A DNA stretch of 64,000 nt from Lachnoclostridium phytofermentans (GTDB taxonomy: Bacteria > Bacillota > Clostridia > Lachnospirales > Lachnospiraceae): contig NZ_JPOF01000003.1 of assembly GCF_000733755.1 (NCBI RefSeq), positions 784,501 through 848,500 of the forward strand, read 5' to 3'. Both the position numbers and the translations under genes were made by a program. Each line of letters begins with the position of its first letter. The stretch's first letter is position 1. Of this stretch, positions 2,680-12,816 are shown one piece after another. Under the pieces are notes generated by a model, which did not search any database, was not told the origin of the DNA, and worked only from the letters and a program-made list of their open reading frames with translations.

Positions 2680-4422
2680 TTATATCTTGAATTGTTCCAC
2701 GATTTTTTGTAAGTCTTTTGCATGTTCCAATGTTTCAGATACTTTCTCAGAAGTTTTTCCAGTAAGTTCAACTGTATTTGAGGTTTTTTGTGCAATATCA
2801 GTTACACCAGTTGCTGCCTCAGACACCGTATCGTTGATTCCATTAATCGCCTCTGCTATGTCTTTAATTGTTGTCTGTAAGCCATCAATAGAGGTGTTGA
2901 TAATCGACATACTATCATTAAATTTTAAGGCATCATCGGAATATTGTGTACTAACATTACGAAATCCTGTATAGTCATTCAAAACTGTGTTTTCTAAGAA
3001 ATCAAGCGTCTTTGATAAACAATCTGCCATATTATTTACAGCATCTTGTACCTCCTCCACAATATCCGTAATATCTTTTACCGTTCTAGTGGATTGATTT
3101 GCTAAGTTACCAATCTCTGTCGCTACTACAGCGAATCCCCTTCCTGATTCACCTGCCCTTGCAGCTTCAATCGATGCATTTAAGGACAATAAACTTGTTT
3201 GAGAAGCAATCTCCATAATTGCTTTCGAAAGAGTTTGTATTCTTTCTACAGATTTTGATTTTTCGATTGCTGTCGTAGTCCTCACTCTTACTTCCTCATA
3301 CATCTGCTTTGTAAGATCACTGGCATGTTCTGTATTGGAATGAAGTTCTTCGGCTCTTTGCATGATTTCCTGAGCCATAGATTTTCCTTCCTCTGTAAGA
3401 TGACTAATCTCCTTTGTATTATCTTCGATATAAACAATATTTGCATTAATGGATTCCGTTGTTGCTGATGTTTCTTCCATTCCAGCTGCTAGTTCTTCTG
3501 CTGTAGCTGAGTTATCACTGGAATTTTCATTTACTTCATTGGCATAACGAGTTAATTCTTCTGCATTGCTTCCGATACGGTTGGAAGTATTTGTTAAACT
3601 ATTAATCATAGCAATGATATTTTCACGCATTTTTCCTATTGCACGACTCATATCGCCAAACTCATCTCGATGGGTATCCAGTTTCTTTTGCCTATCATCC
3701 TCAGTAAAGTTAAGCTCTGAGATTCGATTGACTGCTTCTGTTATAATTAGCGTAGGTTTTGCTAATATGTATGCAATTATTATTCCTACGATAATTGCTA
3801 TAATTAAAATAAAAATATTACCGTTTATCATTTTACGATTAAACTGTTCCATTGGTAACATAACTTCCGATTCATCAGCAGTAAGAACAAGAATGAAGTT
3901 ATCAGTGTCAGAAATATAATATCCTGCATATTTCATAACACCTTGAAATTCATAAGTAATCGTATTGTTCTCAGGAATAACTCCCTGTTTTATTTGCTCC
4001 ACGATTCCCTTTACTACGGAATTCTCAACTTCTGCTCCAACCTTATCCTCGGTCGGATGATACAACATGATTCCAGCTTTATCTACTACATATGCATAAC
4101 TAGAAGGAATTCCTTCTAATGAAGTATCATGAAGGAGTGTCATATAATCCTCATAAGTAAGAGCTTGGTCTTTTGTATCCATCTCATTTTGCAACAAGTG
4201 TCCATAAGCACCAGTTATATCCATCATACTGGTCTTAGTTTTCTCATCGATCGCTTTTTCGAAACTCGGAAAAGCTGTCAATAGGTTAAAAATCGACGCA
4301 ATAGCAGTAATTATTAGCACAACACCTATAACTTTGACTTTCATAGTACGAAACATACTTGTTTTCACTGTTTTTTTCATCTCTTTTCTTATTGAATGGT
4401 CATTTAAATTAACTGTATTCAT
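2680..4422 (-). CDS. methyl-accepting chemotaxis protein
   Basis: This 580-aa transmembrane chemoreceptor signals to CheA/CheW. A cytoplasmic N-terminus leads to TM1 (about 30-52) and an extracellular Cache-like sensor of about 145 residues. TM2 (about 203-223) precedes a HAMP segment and a long MCP signalling coiled coil (about 290-560). The hairpin tip is recognisable around [20 protein letters not shown] and leads into [14 protein letters not shown] good Shine-Dalgarno (GGAGG, 9 bases) supports the start. No che genes are adjacent. A possible sigma-28 promoter lies upstream, which would fit motility-coupled expression. The ligand cannot be told from sequence. Confidence 0.93.
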
Positions 4423-4718: not shown

Positions 4719-4840
4719 AGTGCGTGGTGAATTGTAAGCCGTTACATACTGAAAAACACATACTGAATATCGTAACTTCCTCACAACAAGTTACGTATCT
4801 ACGTTACTTTATCGACTGTCTAACTATAGAAGGAGTATCT

Positions 4841-5830
4841 ATGAGTAAATGTTTCAACGTTAGCAAGTATCCTTACTTGTTTTCTCTCATTCTCCTCATG
4901 TTGCTATTAACCGGATGCAATAAGACTAGTTCTCCCATTCCCCCTCAGACTTTACATATACCAACAGCATCCTCATCCGGAGCACTTTATCAACTTGGGG
5001 ACCTATTTTCAACCCTTTGGACAAATGAGTTGTCCTATATTACTGCAAACTCCTATGAAAGTAATGGAGGTATTGAGAACTTAACTCTATTACACCAAGG
5101 AGATGCAGAGGTTACGTTTGCTGTAACAAGTATCCTATATGAAGCTTATCATGGGATAGGAGATTTCGAAGAGAAAGCAAACGATAATTTACGTGTTATT
5201 GCTGGATTATACTATAACCCAAACCAGATCGTTGTTTCTAAAGACACAAATGCAAAATTTCTTACTGATTTAAAAGGACTTTCTTTCTCTCCTGGGGCAA
5301 TTGGAAGTACTACCATAAAAGAGGCTACACAACATTTTAAAGTTTTGGGCATTGATTTAGCAGAGTACTGTGACTTAGTGAATTCGGGATTTACAGAATC
5401 TGTGGAGTTACTAAAAAATAATGATATCAAAGGTGCATGGATTATGGCAGGTATCCCAAACCAAGCGGTAAGCCAAATGACAAGTGAAGCTGGCGCACAT
5501 CTCATCAGTATCAGTGACTTAACTATTACACAGCTCCAACAGAACTATCCGTGGTATTCCAAGTATATTATCCCTGCAGGAACCTATGAAAATCAAGATA
5601 CCGACATAACCACATCTGCTGTCAAATTAGCATTATGTACAACTACTGACTTAGATGTACAAACAGTATATGATTTAACAAAAACCCTATGGGAGCATAT
5701 GGATTCGTTAAAGGAGAAAAACAGCACATTACGCTCTGTTAGTCTAGAAGGAGCTGTCACAGACCTTGCTGGATTACCCCTTCACGATGGTGCGATGAAA
5801 TATTACAAAGAAAAAGGCATCATCAAGTAA
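4841..5830 (+). CDS. TAXI-family TRAP transporter solute-binding lipoprotein
   Basis: This is an extracellular binding protein of the TAXI type, anchored as a lipoprotein (329 aa). The ATG at 4841 is chosen because AAGGAG lies 7 bases before it and the protein then begins with a clean signal peptide ending in the lipobox LLTGC (Cys about residue 26). The family pattern is visible in ASSSGALYQLGDLFSTLW near the N-terminus, ESNGGIENLTLLHQGDAEVTF, and LKGLSFSPGAIGS. Known TAXI proteins work with a fused DctQ/DctM membrane subunit, usually encoded next door. Here the gene stands alone between a promoter and a terminator, with minus-strand genes on both sides. Either the membrane partner is elsewhere or the protein serves another role such as sensing. 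Confidence 0.88.
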   Translation: MSKCFNVSKYPYLFSLILLMLLLTGCNKTSSPIPPQTLHIPTASSSGALYQLGDLFSTLWTNELSYITANSYESNGGIENLTLLHQGDAEVTFAVTSILYEAYHGIGDFEEKANDNLRVIAGLYYNPNQIVVSKDTNAKFLTDLKGLSFSPGAIGSTTIKEATQHFKVLGIDLAEYCDLVNSGFTESVELLKNNDIKGAWIMAGIPNQAVSQMTSEAGAHLISISDLTITQLQQNYPWYSKYIIPAGTYENQDTDITTSAVKLALCTTTDLDVQTVYDLTKTLWEHMDSLKEKNSTLRSVSLEGAVTDLAGLPLHDGAMKYYKEKGIIK

Positions 5831-5915
5831 ACTGCGAAACGTTTCCTGATGATGCAATCTTATGCTATACTAAATGCCAAACCAATGAATTTGGTATAGA
5901 CTGCTTTTTATAGAA

Positions 5916-6021
5916 AAAGCTGTTGCATTTTTATTTCAGCTCTGCATCTAGTAATGGCGATGTTTAAGAGAAACTCCTCTTAAACTTGATATAGAGCTTA
6001 TAAAAAAAATGCAACAGCTTT
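5916..6021. terminator. long nested palindrome, probable bidirectional terminator
   Basis: Outer arms AAAGCTGTTGCATTTTT (from 5916) and its complement (ending 6021) enclose two nested stems: AGCTCT/AGAGCT (5938-5943 with 5993-5998) and GTTTAAGAG/CTCTTAAAC (5962-5970 with 5977-5985). It separates the convergent TAXI and permease genes. Confidence 0.7.
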
Positions 6022-6034
6022 CTAAATTTTAATA

Positions 6035-7033
6035 CTACTCTTCTTTATTAAATTCTTCTAATTCATCTTCAAGGTTTGGAAGATTTTCTTTGTGAATTAG
6101 TTCGTCTTCAAATTCTTCTTCTACCTGCTTTGCTAAATCTTTTGTAAATACAAGATAATCTTCATTCTCTAGCTCTTCGGAAGTATCCTCTTTCTGAAAT
6201 GAAGATTCCTCTTCTTCTGGTAACAAAGAGTCATATTCGTACTCATTCTCATCTTCTTCCTCTACGTCCGGTATTTCATCTGATATACCCAAAAAATCAT
6301 CTTGCTCTTTTTTACTGGAACGAATTCTCTTAGGACCTTCCATCTCTTCATCTTCATAACTATCTTCTTCTCCAGTTATCTTCTTCTTGATCGCATAGAA
6401 GATTCCTTCAATCATTATTGTCATAACAAGGTAAAATATAATACAGACAAAGATAGAAAAGAATGGATACATTGTTCTTTGACCAATCCTAGTCATAACC
6501 TCTGTTAAGTCATTTACTGAGATATAGGAAACGATAGTAGTCCATTGTAATAATAAAATTGCTAGTCGTTTTACCATGAATAAGGTATCTTCCACTGTTT
6601 GCGGTAAGGTTACTGTAAAATACACCTGTTTTAATCTTCGAATTACAACTGCATCCTGATGTTTTTTTGCTTCCCTCACCTGTCTTGCGATAATTTGTGC
6701 AAAATGACCTGCACCATATAATCCTATTGCAATTCCCGATATTAATGTGATACTAAGATGAAGTCGTTTAAACACTACATAATAAAATAGCAATAATAAC
6801 AATACTACTGGTGTACTACGGAATATAAAACTTATCGCATGCGCTAATCCCGAGATTCCTCTCTTATGGTATGACATAAAGTAACTTAACACAGATCCAA
6901 TTACTACTGTTACCACCCATGCAATCACTACTAAAATAATTGTCACAATAACGCTTTTTGCGATTAGATAATATGCTCCGCCGGAGATCAGATTGTTATT
7001 TATCGCATCAAAGATATTTCTGATAAAACTCAT
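6035..7033 (-). CDS. ABC-type amino-acid permease-like protein with acidic C-terminal tail
   Basis: This 332-aa membrane protein resembles the His/Glu/Gln/Arg permease family. There are about four or five membrane segments in residues 20-215. The loop at about 108-145 aligns with the ATPase-contacting EAA loop through its flanks (TLPQTVEDTL, IVSYISVNDLT). However, the canonical EAA...G core is replaced by HQDAVVIRRLKQ, which lacks the conserved glycine. Residues 221-332 form a very Glu/Asp-rich cytoplasmic tail not usual in the family. ATG 7033 has GAGGAGG 7 bases upstream; an earlier in-frame start lacks a ribosome-binding site. It is the last gene of a three-gene cassette with no ATPase gene. 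I infer that it may not power transport. Confidence 0.8.
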   Translation of the reverse strand: MSFIRNIFDAINNNLISGGAYYLIAKSVIVTIILVVIAWVVTVVIGSVLSYFMSYHKRGISGLAHAISFIFRSTPVVLLLLLFYYVVFKRLHLSITLISGIAIGLYGAGHFAQIIARQVREAKKHQDAVVIRRLKQVYFTVTLPQTVEDTLFMVKRLAILLLQWTTIVSYISVNDLTEVMTRIGQRTMYPFFSIFVCIIFYLVMTIMIEGIFYAIKKKITGEEDSYEDEEMEGPKRIRSSKKEQDDFLGISDEIPDVEEEDENEYEYDSLLPEEEESSFQKEDTSEELENEDYLVFTKDLAKQVEEEFEDELIHKENLPNLEDELEEFNKEE

Positions 7034-7131
7034 ATTCTTTCCTCCTCTCAATTCCAGATATCTCATCAAAGCTAGCATAACATTGGATGAGAAAATTCAA
7101 AAAGAATCACTCTGGAATTCCCTATATTTTA

Positions 7132-7152
7132 GTAATCATCATAGATGATTAC
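7132..7152 (-). other. intercistronic hairpin
   Basis: A perfect 9-bp inverted repeat GTAATCATC/GATGATTAC with a 3-base loop lies between the binding-protein stop and the permease start. It lacks a T-run, so attenuation or mRNA processing is likelier than full termination. Confidence 0.5.
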
Positions 7153-7165
7153 CGCCTTTCATACT

Positions 7166-8017
7166 TTATTCTAAAACCAGGTAAGCGTATTGATTCATTG
7201 TATAGTAACCGTCAGTCATACAATATGTTTTTTTCGTATCCACTGTATTTTTACTAGTTCCATAGCTAAAGAGCACATCTACCTTACCACCCATTAGCAT
7301 GGAAAAACTCGTATCATTTTGAAGGTATACATATCGTATCTCTTTTTCTAATATCTTACCTACTTCATGCATCAAAGCTACGCTAAATCCATATGGTTTT
7401 TGCTCAAAGTCTACCATATCGATAGGAGGTAAAGCACCCGTAACACCTACATATATCGTACCATTGGTAGCTTTAATTTTTTCAAAATCCTTCGCATACA
7501 TCGGTTTGATTTCTTCTGCCTCAATATAGGTAGATACAAGAGTTTCTAAAGTTCCATTTTCTTTTAGCGTGTTCAATGCTTCGTTAATGTCATCTTTCAA
7601 TGCTTGATTTTTAACAGAAAGTGCCATACCAAACTCAAGTCTATCTTCGGATGCCTTTGGAATCTCAAGCTTTCGGATTCCTTTCTCTGTTCGGGCCAAA
7701 TAATCTGCTGACACATCAGGAAACCAAGCGACCTGGATCTCATTGGTTTTCAACGCTGATAGTGTTTCATTAACATCAGGGTAGGAACGATATCCTCTTA
7801 ACTTAACTCCTAGTATACTGTCAAATAAAATCCTTGCACTATTATCTGGCATCTTTGAAGCTACGCCTCCCATTGTCTTTCCGTTAAGTTCCACAACAGC
7901 TTCTAGCTTATCTGAGGTTACCTTAGCTCCATCATTAAAAAATCCCGCACCAGCACATAGTAGACAAAGAATTGCTAGAACTGCCACCGTTATCCATTTT
8001 GATCTCGTTCTCATCAT
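7166..8017 (-). CDS. circularly permuted family-3 solute-binding protein, membrane-anchored
   Basis: This 283-aa protein is held by an N-terminal membrane segment (about 9-27) without a lipobox. The rest matches a bacterial family-3 (GlnH-like) binding domain in swapped order. Residues about 38-165 look like the usual second half: VVELNGKTMGGVA, then SYPDVNETLSALKTNEIQVA, then INEALNTLKENGTLETLV. Residues about 185-283 look like the usual first half: GTIYVGVTGALPPIDM, then YGFSVALMHEVGK, then LMGGKVDVLFSYG and the final MTDGYYTMNQYAYLV. The arginine normally contacting the ligand carboxylate (TxERK) is replaced by VDTKK. Its start overlaps the upstream stop by 4 bases (ATGA), so translation is coupled to the beta-propeller gene. 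Confidence 0.8.
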   Translation of the reverse strand: MMRTRSKWITVAVLAILCLLCAGAGFFNDGAKVTSDKLEAVVELNGKTMGGVASKMPDNSARILFDSILGVKLRGYRSYPDVNETLSALKTNEIQVAWFPDVSADYLARTEKGIRKLEIPKASEDRLEFGMALSVKNQALKDDINEALNTLKENGTLETLVSTYIEAEEIKPMYAKDFEKIKATNGTIYVGVTGALPPIDMVDFEQKPYGFSVALMHEVGKILEKEIRYVYLQNDTSFSMLMGGKVDVLFSYGTSKNTVDTKKTYCMTDGYYTMNQYAYLVLE

Positions 8018-9777
8018 CTTAAAGTCACCCCGATTATCTTTTCATTTCGAGTCCCTACAACAATTTTATTCTCATATACTGCTGCGGTTGCCTCGATTCC
8101 GCCACCAACATCAATACTATCAACGACTTTTCCAGTAGTAGCATCAATTAACATAAGCTTATTATTATAAGCTCCCTGTAACAGATAAGCATCTCCGCTT
8201 GCTGTATAAATAATATTTGCAGAGCTCCAAGAATCTGTCCCTAAATCTGTTCTCCAGATTTCCTCCCCAGTCTTTTTATCTAACGATACAAGATAACCAC
8301 CTTCAACGTTAGGAGTCTTTGAAACAAAGTAAAACACAGAATTTGAAACGATTCCTTTACCGGCAATACCTGTTGCTAAAAAACCGCCTGCTAAACCTGC
8401 AACACTATGAACTTCATAAGGTTTTCTCCATACAATTTCACCAGTAATTGCATTTAACTTATATACACTCGCCTCACCCATATTGTGGCTGTCTTTTCCA
8501 TACTTTAGGGTAGTGGCAACATAAATATACTTTTTACCATCCTCTTCTTTATCAAAGATAATAGAAGAATTCACATCATCTCCAACATCTTGTGTCCATA
8601 TCAGCTCCATGGTATTTAAATCAATGCAATTTACTACTCCACCATTATCACCAAGATAAAGATAATTTTCCCACACGCTACCGCTACATTCACTACCCCA
8701 TACATGATAATCTTCTGAGGCACGAGCAGCACTATATACAACACGAACTTCTTCCGATGGTGCGATCGATAGCGTTCCTTTTACCTTATCATATTTTGTA
8801 TTAAGCTTTAACGTATATAATACACCATTTTCGCCTGGACAGATAATCGTGTCAGATTCCACATGGAAGATGGCTGAACTGTCAAATGCATGCCAAATAC
8901 GTGGTGCTATAGGATCGTTCATCGCAAACTCGTATAGTTTCGAGCCATCGATCAAACTATAGATATAGATTCTTGGACTTATACACTCTCCATATACACC
9001 GGTTTGTGCATCTCCTGATCCCATCACTAACATCGGAATACCACCTGGGTGAAGTGAAGCAGTTCCCTTAAAGGTCATGCCAACGTTGATTGCATCTCTC
9101 GTTGGTTCCCCAGTATCCATATCTAAAAAGTGAACATACCCATCCATTCCAGGATAGATTACTTCTACAAGCCCTTCCTTTTTCTTAGCAGCATCATAAA
9201 GATTCATGATTCTCTTCGTCTCATCATCCCATTTAACAACCAATGGTTGGCCTGTCCATCCATTGCCAGACCAATAATCAACCCCATTACTTTTTAATAC
9301 CTTTCCTGTTGTAAAAGACCAGATATTAGAATCAAACTTTTTCTCAATAAGATTAGCATAACCATAAGCTTGGTGATTTCTATAATAGTCACCACGGAAC
9401 GTATAAACTCCCTTTAATTGATCCATTCCAGACAAATCCTCTTCTGAAAATGTCAGATCATAAGGACGTTTATAACTCTTAACATCTACCCCATTCACCT
9501 GAATACGAGTAGACATCGATAGCACATTTGGATTAGTATTTTTCGTTGCCCTTGGATGCGCTTCCTCAGCACCTTTGGCATTATCAAGGTATTGCTCTAC
9601 TGGAAGACTTCCTCTTGTGTCGACGGTATAATTATATAAATAGCTAAAGCTTCCCTTTACTTTTACTAGTAATTTAAAACCATAAAACCCAGCTCCTAGT
9701 ATGACTAGAACTAATACGCCGATTAGAATCCGAAATGTAATAGACTTTGTAAATCTTTTCTTTTTATCCATATTCAT
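8014..9777 (-). CDS. membrane-anchored PQQ-type beta-propeller protein
   Basis: The protein is 587 aa, with a basic cytoplasmic N-terminus and one membrane segment (about 14-36). About 540 extracellular residues contain blades of the PQQ/BamB type: ELIWTQDVGDDVNSS, GEIVWRKPYEV, GEEIWRTDLGTDSWSS, GKVVDSIDVGGGIEA. Such propellers are mostly protein-binding scaffolds. None of the residues needed for a PQQ enzyme can be identified with confidence. The ATG at 9777 has GGAG close upstream; the in-frame ATG at 9789 lies inside this leader and lacks a site. It is the first gene of the cassette with the permuted binding protein and permease-like protein, and is served by the promoter at 9912-9940. Confidence 0.85.
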   Translation of the reverse strand: MNMDKKKRFTKSITFRILIGVLVLVILGAGFYGFKLLVKVKGSFSYLYNYTVDTRGSLPVEQYLDNAKGAEEAHPRATKNTNPNVLSMSTRIQVNGVDVKSYKRPYDLTFSEEDLSGMDQLKGVYTFRGDYYRNHQAYGYANLIEKKFDSNIWSFTTGKVLKSNGVDYWSGNGWTGQPLVVKWDDETKRIMNLYDAAKKKEGLVEVIYPGMDGYVHFLDMDTGEPTRDAINVGMTFKGTASLHPGGIPMLVMGSGDAQTGVYGECISPRIYIYSLIDGSKLYEFAMNDPIAPRIWHAFDSSAIFHVESDTIICPGENGVLYTLKLNTKYDKVKGTLSIAPSEEVRVVYSAARASEDYHVWGSECSGSVWENYLYLGDNGGVVNCIDLNTMELIWTQDVGDDVNSSIIFDKEEDGKKYIYVATTLKYGKDSHNMGEASVYKLNAITGEIVWRKPYEVHSVAGLAGGFLATGIAGKGIVSNSVFYFVSKTPNVEGGYLVSLDKKTGEEIWRTDLGTDSWSSANIIYTASGDAYLLQGAYNNKLMLIDATTGKVVDSIDVGGGIEATAAVYENKIVVGTRNEKIIGVTLR

Positions 9778-9911
9778 CCTAACTCCCATCTGCGTGCTTT
9801 ACACGCATACATATCAAGAAAACCTCTATTTTAGTGCCTTGTCGCCTTTTTCTAACATATTTTTATTACGCACATGTATAATAAAGAAGGGTTTCCCACA
9901 GATTCACAGTT

Positions 9912-9940
9912 ATCATATAGAATATTACCATCTTTGTCAA
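9912..9940 (-). promoter_or_regulatory. sigma-A promoter of the propeller/binding-protein/permease cassette
   Basis: On the minus strand TTGACA (9940-9935), a 17-base spacer and TATGAT (9917-9912) predict a leader of about 130 bases. Near its 3' end the leader has the hairpin TGCGTG/CACGCA just before the ribosome-binding site. Confidence 0.75.
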
Positions 9941-10074: not shown

Positions 10075-10515
10075 TTACTTTGAGCCAATTGCGTCCTTCT
10101 CTGAATCACAGTTTACACACTCTTCAATTCCCTCAATATCTTCACGATGAACTGCAACTTCATTCTCCATGATATGTACTAACTCACAGGCATAACTAGC
10201 CTGTGTAGCCAATGTGTCGATATACTGCGAAACGGTTATCCCAATCAATTCTTGTTCTTCCACCATCGACATCACATGTTCTAACTCTTTTAGTTTTTCC
10301 CCTTGTACTCTTGCTAAATGATCTTTCAAATGATTTGCAACACAATAATTGATCGCTTCCATCTTAGAAATAAGCTTTTGTATCTCAAGTGAAGTTTCTG
10401 AAACAAGGCAACATAATTTATCTTGTTCATTGAGTACATCAAATGTAGTCTTCTCTACTTGATCTTGAGAACTATACAGCTTTTCCATAATCTCTTGTAA
10501 AGATTCGCTTTGCAT
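10075..10515 (-). CDS. hypothetical helical protein, 146 aa
   Basis: I do not recognise this family. The sequence is acidic, strongly heptad-like and probably almost wholly alpha-helical (for example ISKMEAINYCVANHLKDHLARVQGEKLKELEHVMSMVEEQEL), with no membrane segment. It has five scattered cysteines and a short C-terminal CVNCDSEKD. The ATG at 10515 has GGGGG 5 bases upstream and is preferred over the in-frame ATG at 10527. It lies downstream of radA on the same strand with a gap of about 117 bases, so co-transcription is possible but not shown. It may be a coiled-coil adaptor; the function is unknown. Confidence 0.65.
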   Translation of the reverse strand: MQSESLQEIMEKLYSSQDQVEKTTFDVLNEQDKLCCLVSETSLEIQKLISKMEAINYCVANHLKDHLARVQGEKLKELEHVMSMVEEQELIGITVSQYIDTLATQASYACELVHIMENEVAVHREDIEGIEECVNCDSEKDAIGSK

Positions 10516-10632
10516 GATTACCCCCATCTTTTATCTTACTACCCTTTGCACGCTTTCGCTCACAGATAAATTAAGAGTTGAAACTTAGTTATTTTCCACC
10601 TAAGACCAATTGCATGCCATAAATTGTAGCAT

Positions 10633-12123: not shown

Positions 12124-12537
12124 TTATAATTTTATAACACGTACCTGAACATCTCTCTCGCAATTAAGCTCTGTACTAATCATTAATTTTCCACCTAAAT
12201 TTGTCTTCATCTTACCAACATTAGTTCCATCAATGAAAATTTTATATTCTTTCTCTGGCTCTAATTCTAATGTAATCTGAGCATCTTCACTGCCCTTTAC
12301 ATAGAAACTAACTTCTTTTTCAGATATATCCAAATGAGATACTGCTGTCCCCGGTACAGACTCATAAACAAATAGTCCATTTTTCTCTAATTTCGTAATC
12401 TCATAAAATGTCTTTACTTTATATAAATCTCCGTTATGTTGGAAATCCGAAACTTTCTGTTTCGTCTCTAAGGTATAATCACCAAAGCTAATTGTGCCAT
12501 CCTTTTCTTCACGAATCAGATTCTCATTTAATGCCAT
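12124..12537 (-). CDS. conserved hypothetical beta-rich protein, 137 aa
   Basis: This protein begins MALNENLIREEKDGTISFGDYTLETKQKV and is predicted mainly beta. It resembles a small cytoplasmic family found in Lachnospiraceae and sometimes labelled endosialidase-like in databases; I recall that label only loosely and see no sialidase motif. There is no signal peptide and no catalytic motif. The ATG at 12537 is chosen because AGGAGG lies 8 bases upstream; the in-frame ATGs before it have no ribosome-binding site. It sits between radA and clpC on the same strand with substantial gaps on both sides, so probably has its own promoter. The roughly 280-base gap upstream is AT-rich and contains only a short AGCATA/TATGCT stem. 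Confidence 0.65.
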   Translation of the reverse strand: MALNENLIREEKDGTISFGDYTLETKQKVSDFQHNGDLYKVKTFYEITKLEKNGLFVYESVPGTAVSHLDISEKEVSFYVKGSEDAQITLELEPEKEYKIFIDGTNVGKMKTNLGGKLMISTELNCERDVQVRVIKL

Positions 12538-12816
12538 TTTCTTATCCTCCTGGTATTGTTTCATAACCATCTGTTTTTAGGGTTATTAAAATAACTAATA
12601 CTAACTAGTTGATTTTTCTATATATGCATTATAATATAATCCTTACTATAATGCTACTAAATATTCTGTATTTCGACGAATTTGTATAGAAAATGAGTTA
12701 GATATTCCCTTCAAAAGAAACTAATTACAGTTTTAGCATACCATAAACAATACTATGCTTTTTGTCGCCTTTTTTATAGTTGTTCGCAACCTTATGAAAT
12801 CAGTTGGAAATTTTGT

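Follow-up and report, generated by a model that had tools for sequence, protein, structure and literature searches.

A conserved cassette of propeller, permuted binding protein and permease-like protein without an ABC ATPase of its own in Lachnospiraceae

Introduction

Every part of the cassette described here belongs to a known family, and several described systems resemble it in one respect or another. The closest are the PAAT importers with a permuted binding protein found in Lachnospiraceae, represented in the same genome by a transporter on another contig (locus L182, G000:C8) that comprises a lipoprotein-type binding protein, a permease and an ATPase. These importers share with the cassette the family-3 binding protein, with homology running linearly along its whole length, and the permease fold; they also possess an ATPase, the EAA motif, the carboxylate arginine motif and mostly a lipobox, all of which the cassette as a rule lacks, and they lack the propeller gene that stands in front of the cassette. 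The part of an ABC permease that contacts the ATPase, the coupling helix, is the EAA region (PMC8603345). Permuted binding proteins are already known, among them the anchored MglB-2 (Tp0684) of Treponema pallidum (PMC4990184) and OpuAC, for which 2B4L has been described as a natural permutant (PMC2395249). MglB-2 and the OpuAC of B. subtilis resemble the cassette protein in their permuted lobe order and in being anchored, although MglB-2 has the cluster B fold and OpuAC binds betaine, whereas the cassette protein belongs by sequence to family 3. A binding-protein-type helper of a propeller enzyme is likewise known, from methylotrophs, in which the solute-binding-type protein MxaJ is needed for a functional PQQ enzyme and MxaJ/XoxJ are required for PQQ methanol dehydrogenases (PMC9291206); this pair parallels the propeller and binding protein of the cassette but, as described there, includes no permease. 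No description of the three-part set itself was found in the open-access literature. What appears to be new, judging from the sequences, is a set free of an ATPase in which the coupling and carboxylate motifs have been lost and the lipobox is mostly gone, and which is nevertheless held under strong purifying selection.

Organization of the locus

The window, that is, the whole stretch of 64,000 nucleotides analysed, encodes the cassette on its minus strand as three open reading frames between positions 9777 and 6035, in the order propeller, binding protein, permease-like protein. The principal features are as follows.

9912..9940, minus strand: candidate sigma-70-like promoter, TTGACA-17-TATGAT, with 11 of 12 consensus bases in a consensus scan
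8014..9777, minus strand: gene 1, membrane-anchored PQQ_2/BamB-like propeller, 587 aa (PF13360, 56.1 bits)
7166..8017, minus strand: gene 2, membrane-anchored, circularly permuted family-3 binding protein, 283 aa (PF00497, AncQR match, AlphaFold model)
6035..7033, minus strand: gene 3, PAAT-type permease-like protein, 332 aa (PF00528, 24.4 bits; 4yms_D)

Alternative starts would extend the propeller to 591 aa (from 9789) and the permease to 347 aa (from 7078). The family matches of these frames bear out the three-gene cassette of the original prediction, which had further placed three translationally close genes behind one promoter. A near-consensus promoter is indeed present at 9940-9912, and the start of the binding protein gene overlaps the propeller stop by 4 nt; the permease gene, however, begins only after a further 132 nt, so that in the window genes 1 and 2 alone are translationally close in the strict sense. 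This last gap contains, at 7132-7152, a perfect short inverted repeat seen by eye (GTAATCATC-TAT-GATGATTAC), which might set the ratio of binding protein to permease product.

Conservation and selection

Conservation of the gene order across Lachnospiraceae had been suggested as a check on the cassette, and the survey shows the order to be strictly kept. A first search of 200 Lachnospiraceae genomes yielded orthologues in G127, G115, G039 and G134, arranged as clpC, a small gene, radA, propeller, binding protein and permease, with an extra gene after radA in some of them, and a locus in G189 in which binding protein and permease are fused; G242 and G355 came to light when 397 genomes were searched for the propeller. 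Named public genomes, scanned next, yielded 54 loci. In 36 of these the propeller and the binding protein are encoded by separate genes, 35 of the 36 also having the permease and one reaching the contig end, and in eight the binding protein and permease are fused. The same order is present in 44 public loci, the eight fused ones included, and the gaps within the cassette are mostly below 60 nt across loci. In some loci with a close propeller the two partner genes are missing, in part at contig ends and in part genuinely (L120, L122). Most cassette records are Lachnospiraceae MAGs, many of them from rumen or gut, and a few are labelled only Clostridia or Clostridiales; the closest record is filed under Lachnoclostridium phytofermentans, with 93% propeller identity. 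Soil as well as gut members of the family thus carry the set. Since the cassette is conserved in many rumen and gut Lachnospiraceae, it likely serves a basic surface function in this major group of gut bacteria. Occurrence outside the family was considered and rejected: samples of the order (24 of 392 genomes) and of the class (74 of 391, window genome included) gave distant propellers only, with no cassette partner beside them in the loci inspected.

Purifying selection acts strongly on all three genes, with dN/dS values between the window and locus L096 of 0.054 for the propeller, 0.072 for the binding protein and 0.112 for the permease. These values bear on the idea that the cassette is a decaying transporter, a functionless remnant heading for loss, as the disappearance of the ATPase and of key motifs could suggest. 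Purifying selection on every gene contradicts decay, the order has been kept in 44 loci and the proteins have gained new invariant residues, all of which makes such an explanation extremely improbable.

Absence of an ATPase

The statement that no ATPase lies inside or next to the cassette stands. Scanned as a whole with the Pfam ABC ATPase family, the window's genome showed 146 matches. Within the window there is only a weak one, at about 11.5 kb, to RadA; the closest true ABC ATPase is about 55 kb from the cassette, 0.7 kb past the far end of the window. The profile scan covered this one genome; ATPases near the orthologues were sought by a Walker A plus signature pattern, which is less sensitive, and were found near three cassettes only (L121, L125 and L142). 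Those near L121 and L125 sit in a set with FtsX-like permeases of their own and that near L142 lies on the opposite strand beside its own permease, and all three were rejected as cassette parts. None of the 44 public loci of the same order thus has an ATPase of its own, and homologous loci regularly carrying an ATPase gene, named in the original prediction as the finding that would count against it, are not what the orthologues show.

Most of the distant matches of the 200-genome search represent complete transporters that include an ATPase; the binding proteins of these matches are permuted as well. In a permease tree the 44 cassette proteins are divided from 16 relatives, nearly all from ATPase loci, by a branch supported at 100/100, although the tree is unrooted and its flagged long branches call for care. 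By its sequences the cassette is a separate clade related to the ATPase-bearing transporters of the PAAT family.

The permease-like protein

Assignment of the third protein as an ABC-type permease is favoured by its best solved sequence relative, the amino-acid ABC permease 4yms_D (4.4e-6), and by a series of matches lying under their cut-offs, including BPD_transp_1 (PF00528, 24.4 bits against 26.4), TIGR01726 (32.9 against 42.2) and the NCBIfam models for EhuC, ArtQ and GltK. The membrane core is still recognisable in structure as well: the natural fusion from L121, modelled as a monomer (pLDDT 86.8, pTM 0.71), has 4yms_D as its top structural match, with MetNI permeases also among the matches. 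Two regions of the protein are listed below.

6584..6688, minus strand: permease residues 116-150, the rebuilt coupling-loop region, which lacks the EAA motif (motif counts; dN/dS 0.019, window against L096)
6038..6358, minus strand: permease residues 226-332, an acidic C-terminal tail with 45 D/E against 10 K/R, found in this genus only (dN/dS 0.26, window against L096)

The EA...LG coupling motif is present in 16 of 16 ATPase-bearing relatives and in none of the 44 cassette permeases, and in several fused forms most of the coupling loop is deleted. The very low dN/dS of the rebuilt loop indicates that it is under constraint though it has no standard docking motif. Loss of the coupling loop in a protein that otherwise carries the sequence signs of a permease agrees with the earlier description of a repurposed transporter, and standard ATPase coupling has very probably been lost.

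Docking of an ATPase by another surface, or an ATPase shared in trans, may count against such an uncoupled reading. The genome contains the related C8 transporter, which has its own ATPase, and further ABC ATPase domains numbering well over a hundred, and an importer whose permease docks an ATPase encoded elsewhere, for instance that of the C8 paralogue, could continue solute uptake with its recognisable membrane core. The docking motif that is universal among the relatives examined is nonetheless missing from all cassette permeases, and the loop is largely deleted in several fused forms; continued import with a shared ATPase is unlikely. If the permease is truly uncoupled from ATP, the type-I ABC permease fold would have been kept under strong selection for a job other than ATP-driven transport; the family matches of the cassette genes, which read as parts of an ABC transporter, would then be a warning against annotating the set as an amino-acid importer.

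The binding protein

The second gene product matches PF00497 in two stretches (54.6 bits, E 1.2e-14, cut-off 26.4) that follow one another in permuted order, residues 34-161 corresponding to residues 105-227 of AncQR and residues 185-276 to residues 9-98.

7514..7918, minus strand: residues 34-168, lobe 2 of the binding protein, placed second in standard members of the family (AncQR match, profile fit)
7169..7477, minus strand: residues 181-283, lobe 1 of the binding protein, placed first in standard members of the family (AncQR match, profile fit)
7715..7717, minus strand: Asp101 codon, the residue being the same in all 45 cassette binding proteins
7229..7261, minus strand: residues 253-263, in place of the relatives' GxTxTxxR carboxylate-binding motif (0 of 45 cassettes against 15 of 15 relatives)

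Cassette binding proteins have a hydrophobic N-terminal stretch, and the description as a permuted, membrane-anchored protein holds; a lipobox occurs in 3 of 45, against 13 of 15 in the relatives. The permutation itself, which the original prediction had included in its description of the cassette, is common to ATPase-bearing transporters of the same family. A profile built from the binding proteins of 15 ATPase-bearing relatives fits all 45 cassette sequences better as they stand than after rotation, and the protein of one such relative matches AncQR in two permuted pieces (83.5 and 77.5 bits). Because ordinary ATPase-bearing relatives share it, one of them in this very genome, the permutation is ruled out as a cassette-specific novelty. 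Permuted family-3 binding proteins accompanied by an ATPase gene seem to be common among the amino-acid importers of Lachnospiraceae, either as separate proteins or fused to the permease (L035, L036, L037, L040, L041, L182 and others).

An AlphaFold monomer model of the window's protein (pLDDT 88.5, 36 sequences used) has OpuAC entries as its top structural matches (Z 11.6, rmsd 4.6, 204 residues), with standard amino-acid binding proteins ranking after them (Z about 10, about 166-180 residues). The ligand-binding motifs, in turn, differ in sequence. In LAO-type proteins the GxTxTxxR motif holds the arginine that binds the carboxylate of the amino acid; besides this motif, the GT[TV] stretch of lobe 2 has also been lost from the cassette proteins. 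The invariant aspartate lies at the amine-binding place or one residue off it, the doubt in the alignment being one residue.

The propeller

The first gene product scores above the cut-off of PQQ_2 (PF13360, 56.1 bits, E 5.6e-15, cut-off 27.6), and a hydrophobic N-terminal stretch is present in 41 of 49 orthologues, among which 121 residues are identical throughout; the description as a membrane-anchored PQQ-type propeller is accordingly sound. The outer membrane assembly factor BamB has the same PQQ_2 propeller, but the cassette protein falls far below the BamB equivalog models (38.6 against a cut-off of 423 and 37.4 against 285). Propellers of the family, with up to 611 bits against the cassette profile, also stand alone in many Clostridia, in the inspected loci with neither binding protein nor permease beside them, unlike the cassette propellers, which mostly exceed 850 bits. 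Tandem pairs of this propeller family occur in several families of the class (L166, L167 and L173, in genomes G725, G785 and G1064).

By analogy with MxaJ/XoxJ, the binding protein might be a factor for assembly or activation of the propeller, with the permease serving only as an anchor. Such a helper pair has a precedent in the solute-binding-type protein required by a PQQ enzyme (PMC9291206), and the binding protein scores weakly with the MoxJ-type model TIGR03871. That score is 20.8 against a cut-off of 212, the propeller misses the PQQ-dehydrogenase model PF01011 (22.5 against 26.7), and the same propeller family manages on its own in many Clostridia; on balance the analogy very probably does not hold.

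Neighbouring genes and the Dlt-like components

Main-lineage cassettes come after radA, in many cases separated from it by a few dozen bases or overlapping it. An M14 zinc carboxypeptidase lies between radA and the cassette in nine loci, and SpoIID-like and YihY genes come after the cassette in nine main-lineage loci; elsewhere the neighbour is a uridine phosphorylase, a deoxyribose-phosphate aldolase or, by sequence, an apparent cytidine deaminase. In the fused lineage the cassette adjoins VanW, a DltA-like enzyme and mostly a DltC-like carrier, which lie upstream or downstream depending on the locus. These last genes recall the D-alanylating Dlt system but fall short of it at the equivalog level (386 against 560 for DltA, 33.6 against 52 for DltC). 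A close DltA-like gene is present in all eight fused-lineage genomes and in the genome of L122, and in none of the 18 main-lineage genomes tested; the window's genome has distant DltA-like matches only, at about 30% identity. A gene for an MBOAT protein, the family of DltB, occurs somewhere in six of the eight fused-lineage genomes. The two in which none was found are both MAGs, and the absence is for that reason weak evidence. Replacement of DltB as a general function of the cassette was rejected, given that none of the 18 main-lineage genomes has a close DltA-like gene and that six of the eight fused-lineage genomes have some MBOAT protein. At L122, a propeller-only locus, VanW, DltA-like and DltC-like genes precede a close propeller gene, which is followed by a MoxR-type ATPase, with no binding protein or permease.

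A possible role at the cell envelope

By sequence, the hallmarks of ATPase coupling and of free-amino-acid binding are gone, a propeller has been gained and selection continues. From this we infer that the cassette may be an ATP-uncoupled relative of PAAT importers, acting in the cell envelope as a fixed complex in the membrane, a reading to which we give about an even chance. The natural fusion of binding protein and permease (eight loci) and the fully supported split in the permease tree would fit such a complex. An importer-like set without its motor or the socket for it, and joined to a propeller, probably has a job at the cell surface, as yet undescribed. The permease would have ceased to be an ABC pump and become a hub in the membrane, serving as a scaffold or as a gated path whose driving force is not an ABC ATPase; the binding protein would read or pass on a ligand with a blocked or missing carboxylate, such as an aminoacyl or peptidoglycan-stem group, using the invariant Asp101; and the propeller would hold the binding protein together with a further extracellular partner. 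Confidence in any particular ligand is low.

Assembly or modification of the envelope would be the most likely task, with signalling second. The envelope-assembly complex of the original prediction is partly sustained, in that neighbours of peptidoglycan type and Dlt-like neighbours point to it (M14 carboxypeptidase, SpoIID-like, VanW, DltA-like, DltC-like). Against an envelope role, neighbours vary by lineage, some belonging to nucleoside metabolism, and the two lineages have no single common partner outside the cassette. Confidence in a role in the envelope is moderate. A bolder conjecture is that the cassette would represent a new class of envelope machine, an ABC permease core without any ABC ATPase, in which, in the fused lineage, an aminoacyl group charged onto the carrier by the DltA-like enzyme would provide the energy and be passed to the outside by the permease-like and binding proteins; this is conceivable but highly improbable.

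The original prediction had also offered extracellular sensing, in which the binding protein would close on its ligand and the permease relay the change to a cytoplasmic partner. Transport features have been lost while the receptor fold is retained, the structural matches include sensor domains such as BvgS, and a histidine kinase and, by sequence, an apparent response regulator come after the cassette at the fused locus L125. Across the loci, however, the cassette has no conserved neighbour that encodes a cytoplasmic signalling protein, and the permease has no conserved cytoplasmic domain, its acidic tail being limited to one genus. With no conserved cytoplasmic output partner found, sensing receives little support and is rather doubtful, and for the same reason assembly or modification of the envelope is preferred, a scaffold or hand-over function being more likely than signalling.

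Flanking elements

Several features around the cassette in the window deserve mention. Just past the permease gene, at 5914-6021, paired arms about 80 bases apart (AAGCTGTTGCATTTTT and AAAAATGCAACAGCTTTTT) were seen by eye and form a possible terminator; a scan for short-loop terminators did not pick them up. An Rfam scan of the first 16.5 kb of the window returned nothing except a tRNA at 252-324. Between radA and the cassette, at 10075-10527 on the minus strand, lies a gene for a 150-aa protein with no family assigned, relatives of which occupy the same position in close genomes only (L096, L097, L098 and L099, and weakly L077). A 148-aa protein with weak family matches only is encoded at 12124-12570 on the minus strand between clpC and radA, and is found there in most main-lineage loci (cluster c4, 32 loci). 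On the other side of the cassette, a TAXI-type TRAP solute-binding protein (TIGR02122, 257.6 bits) is encoded at 4724-5830 on the plus strand without an adjoining TRAP permease, the only strong DctM gene of the genome lying about 780 kb away on the same contig. Its neighbour at 2680-4422 on the minus strand reads as a methyl-accepting chemotaxis protein, and the TAXI-type protein may for this reason act as a receptor.
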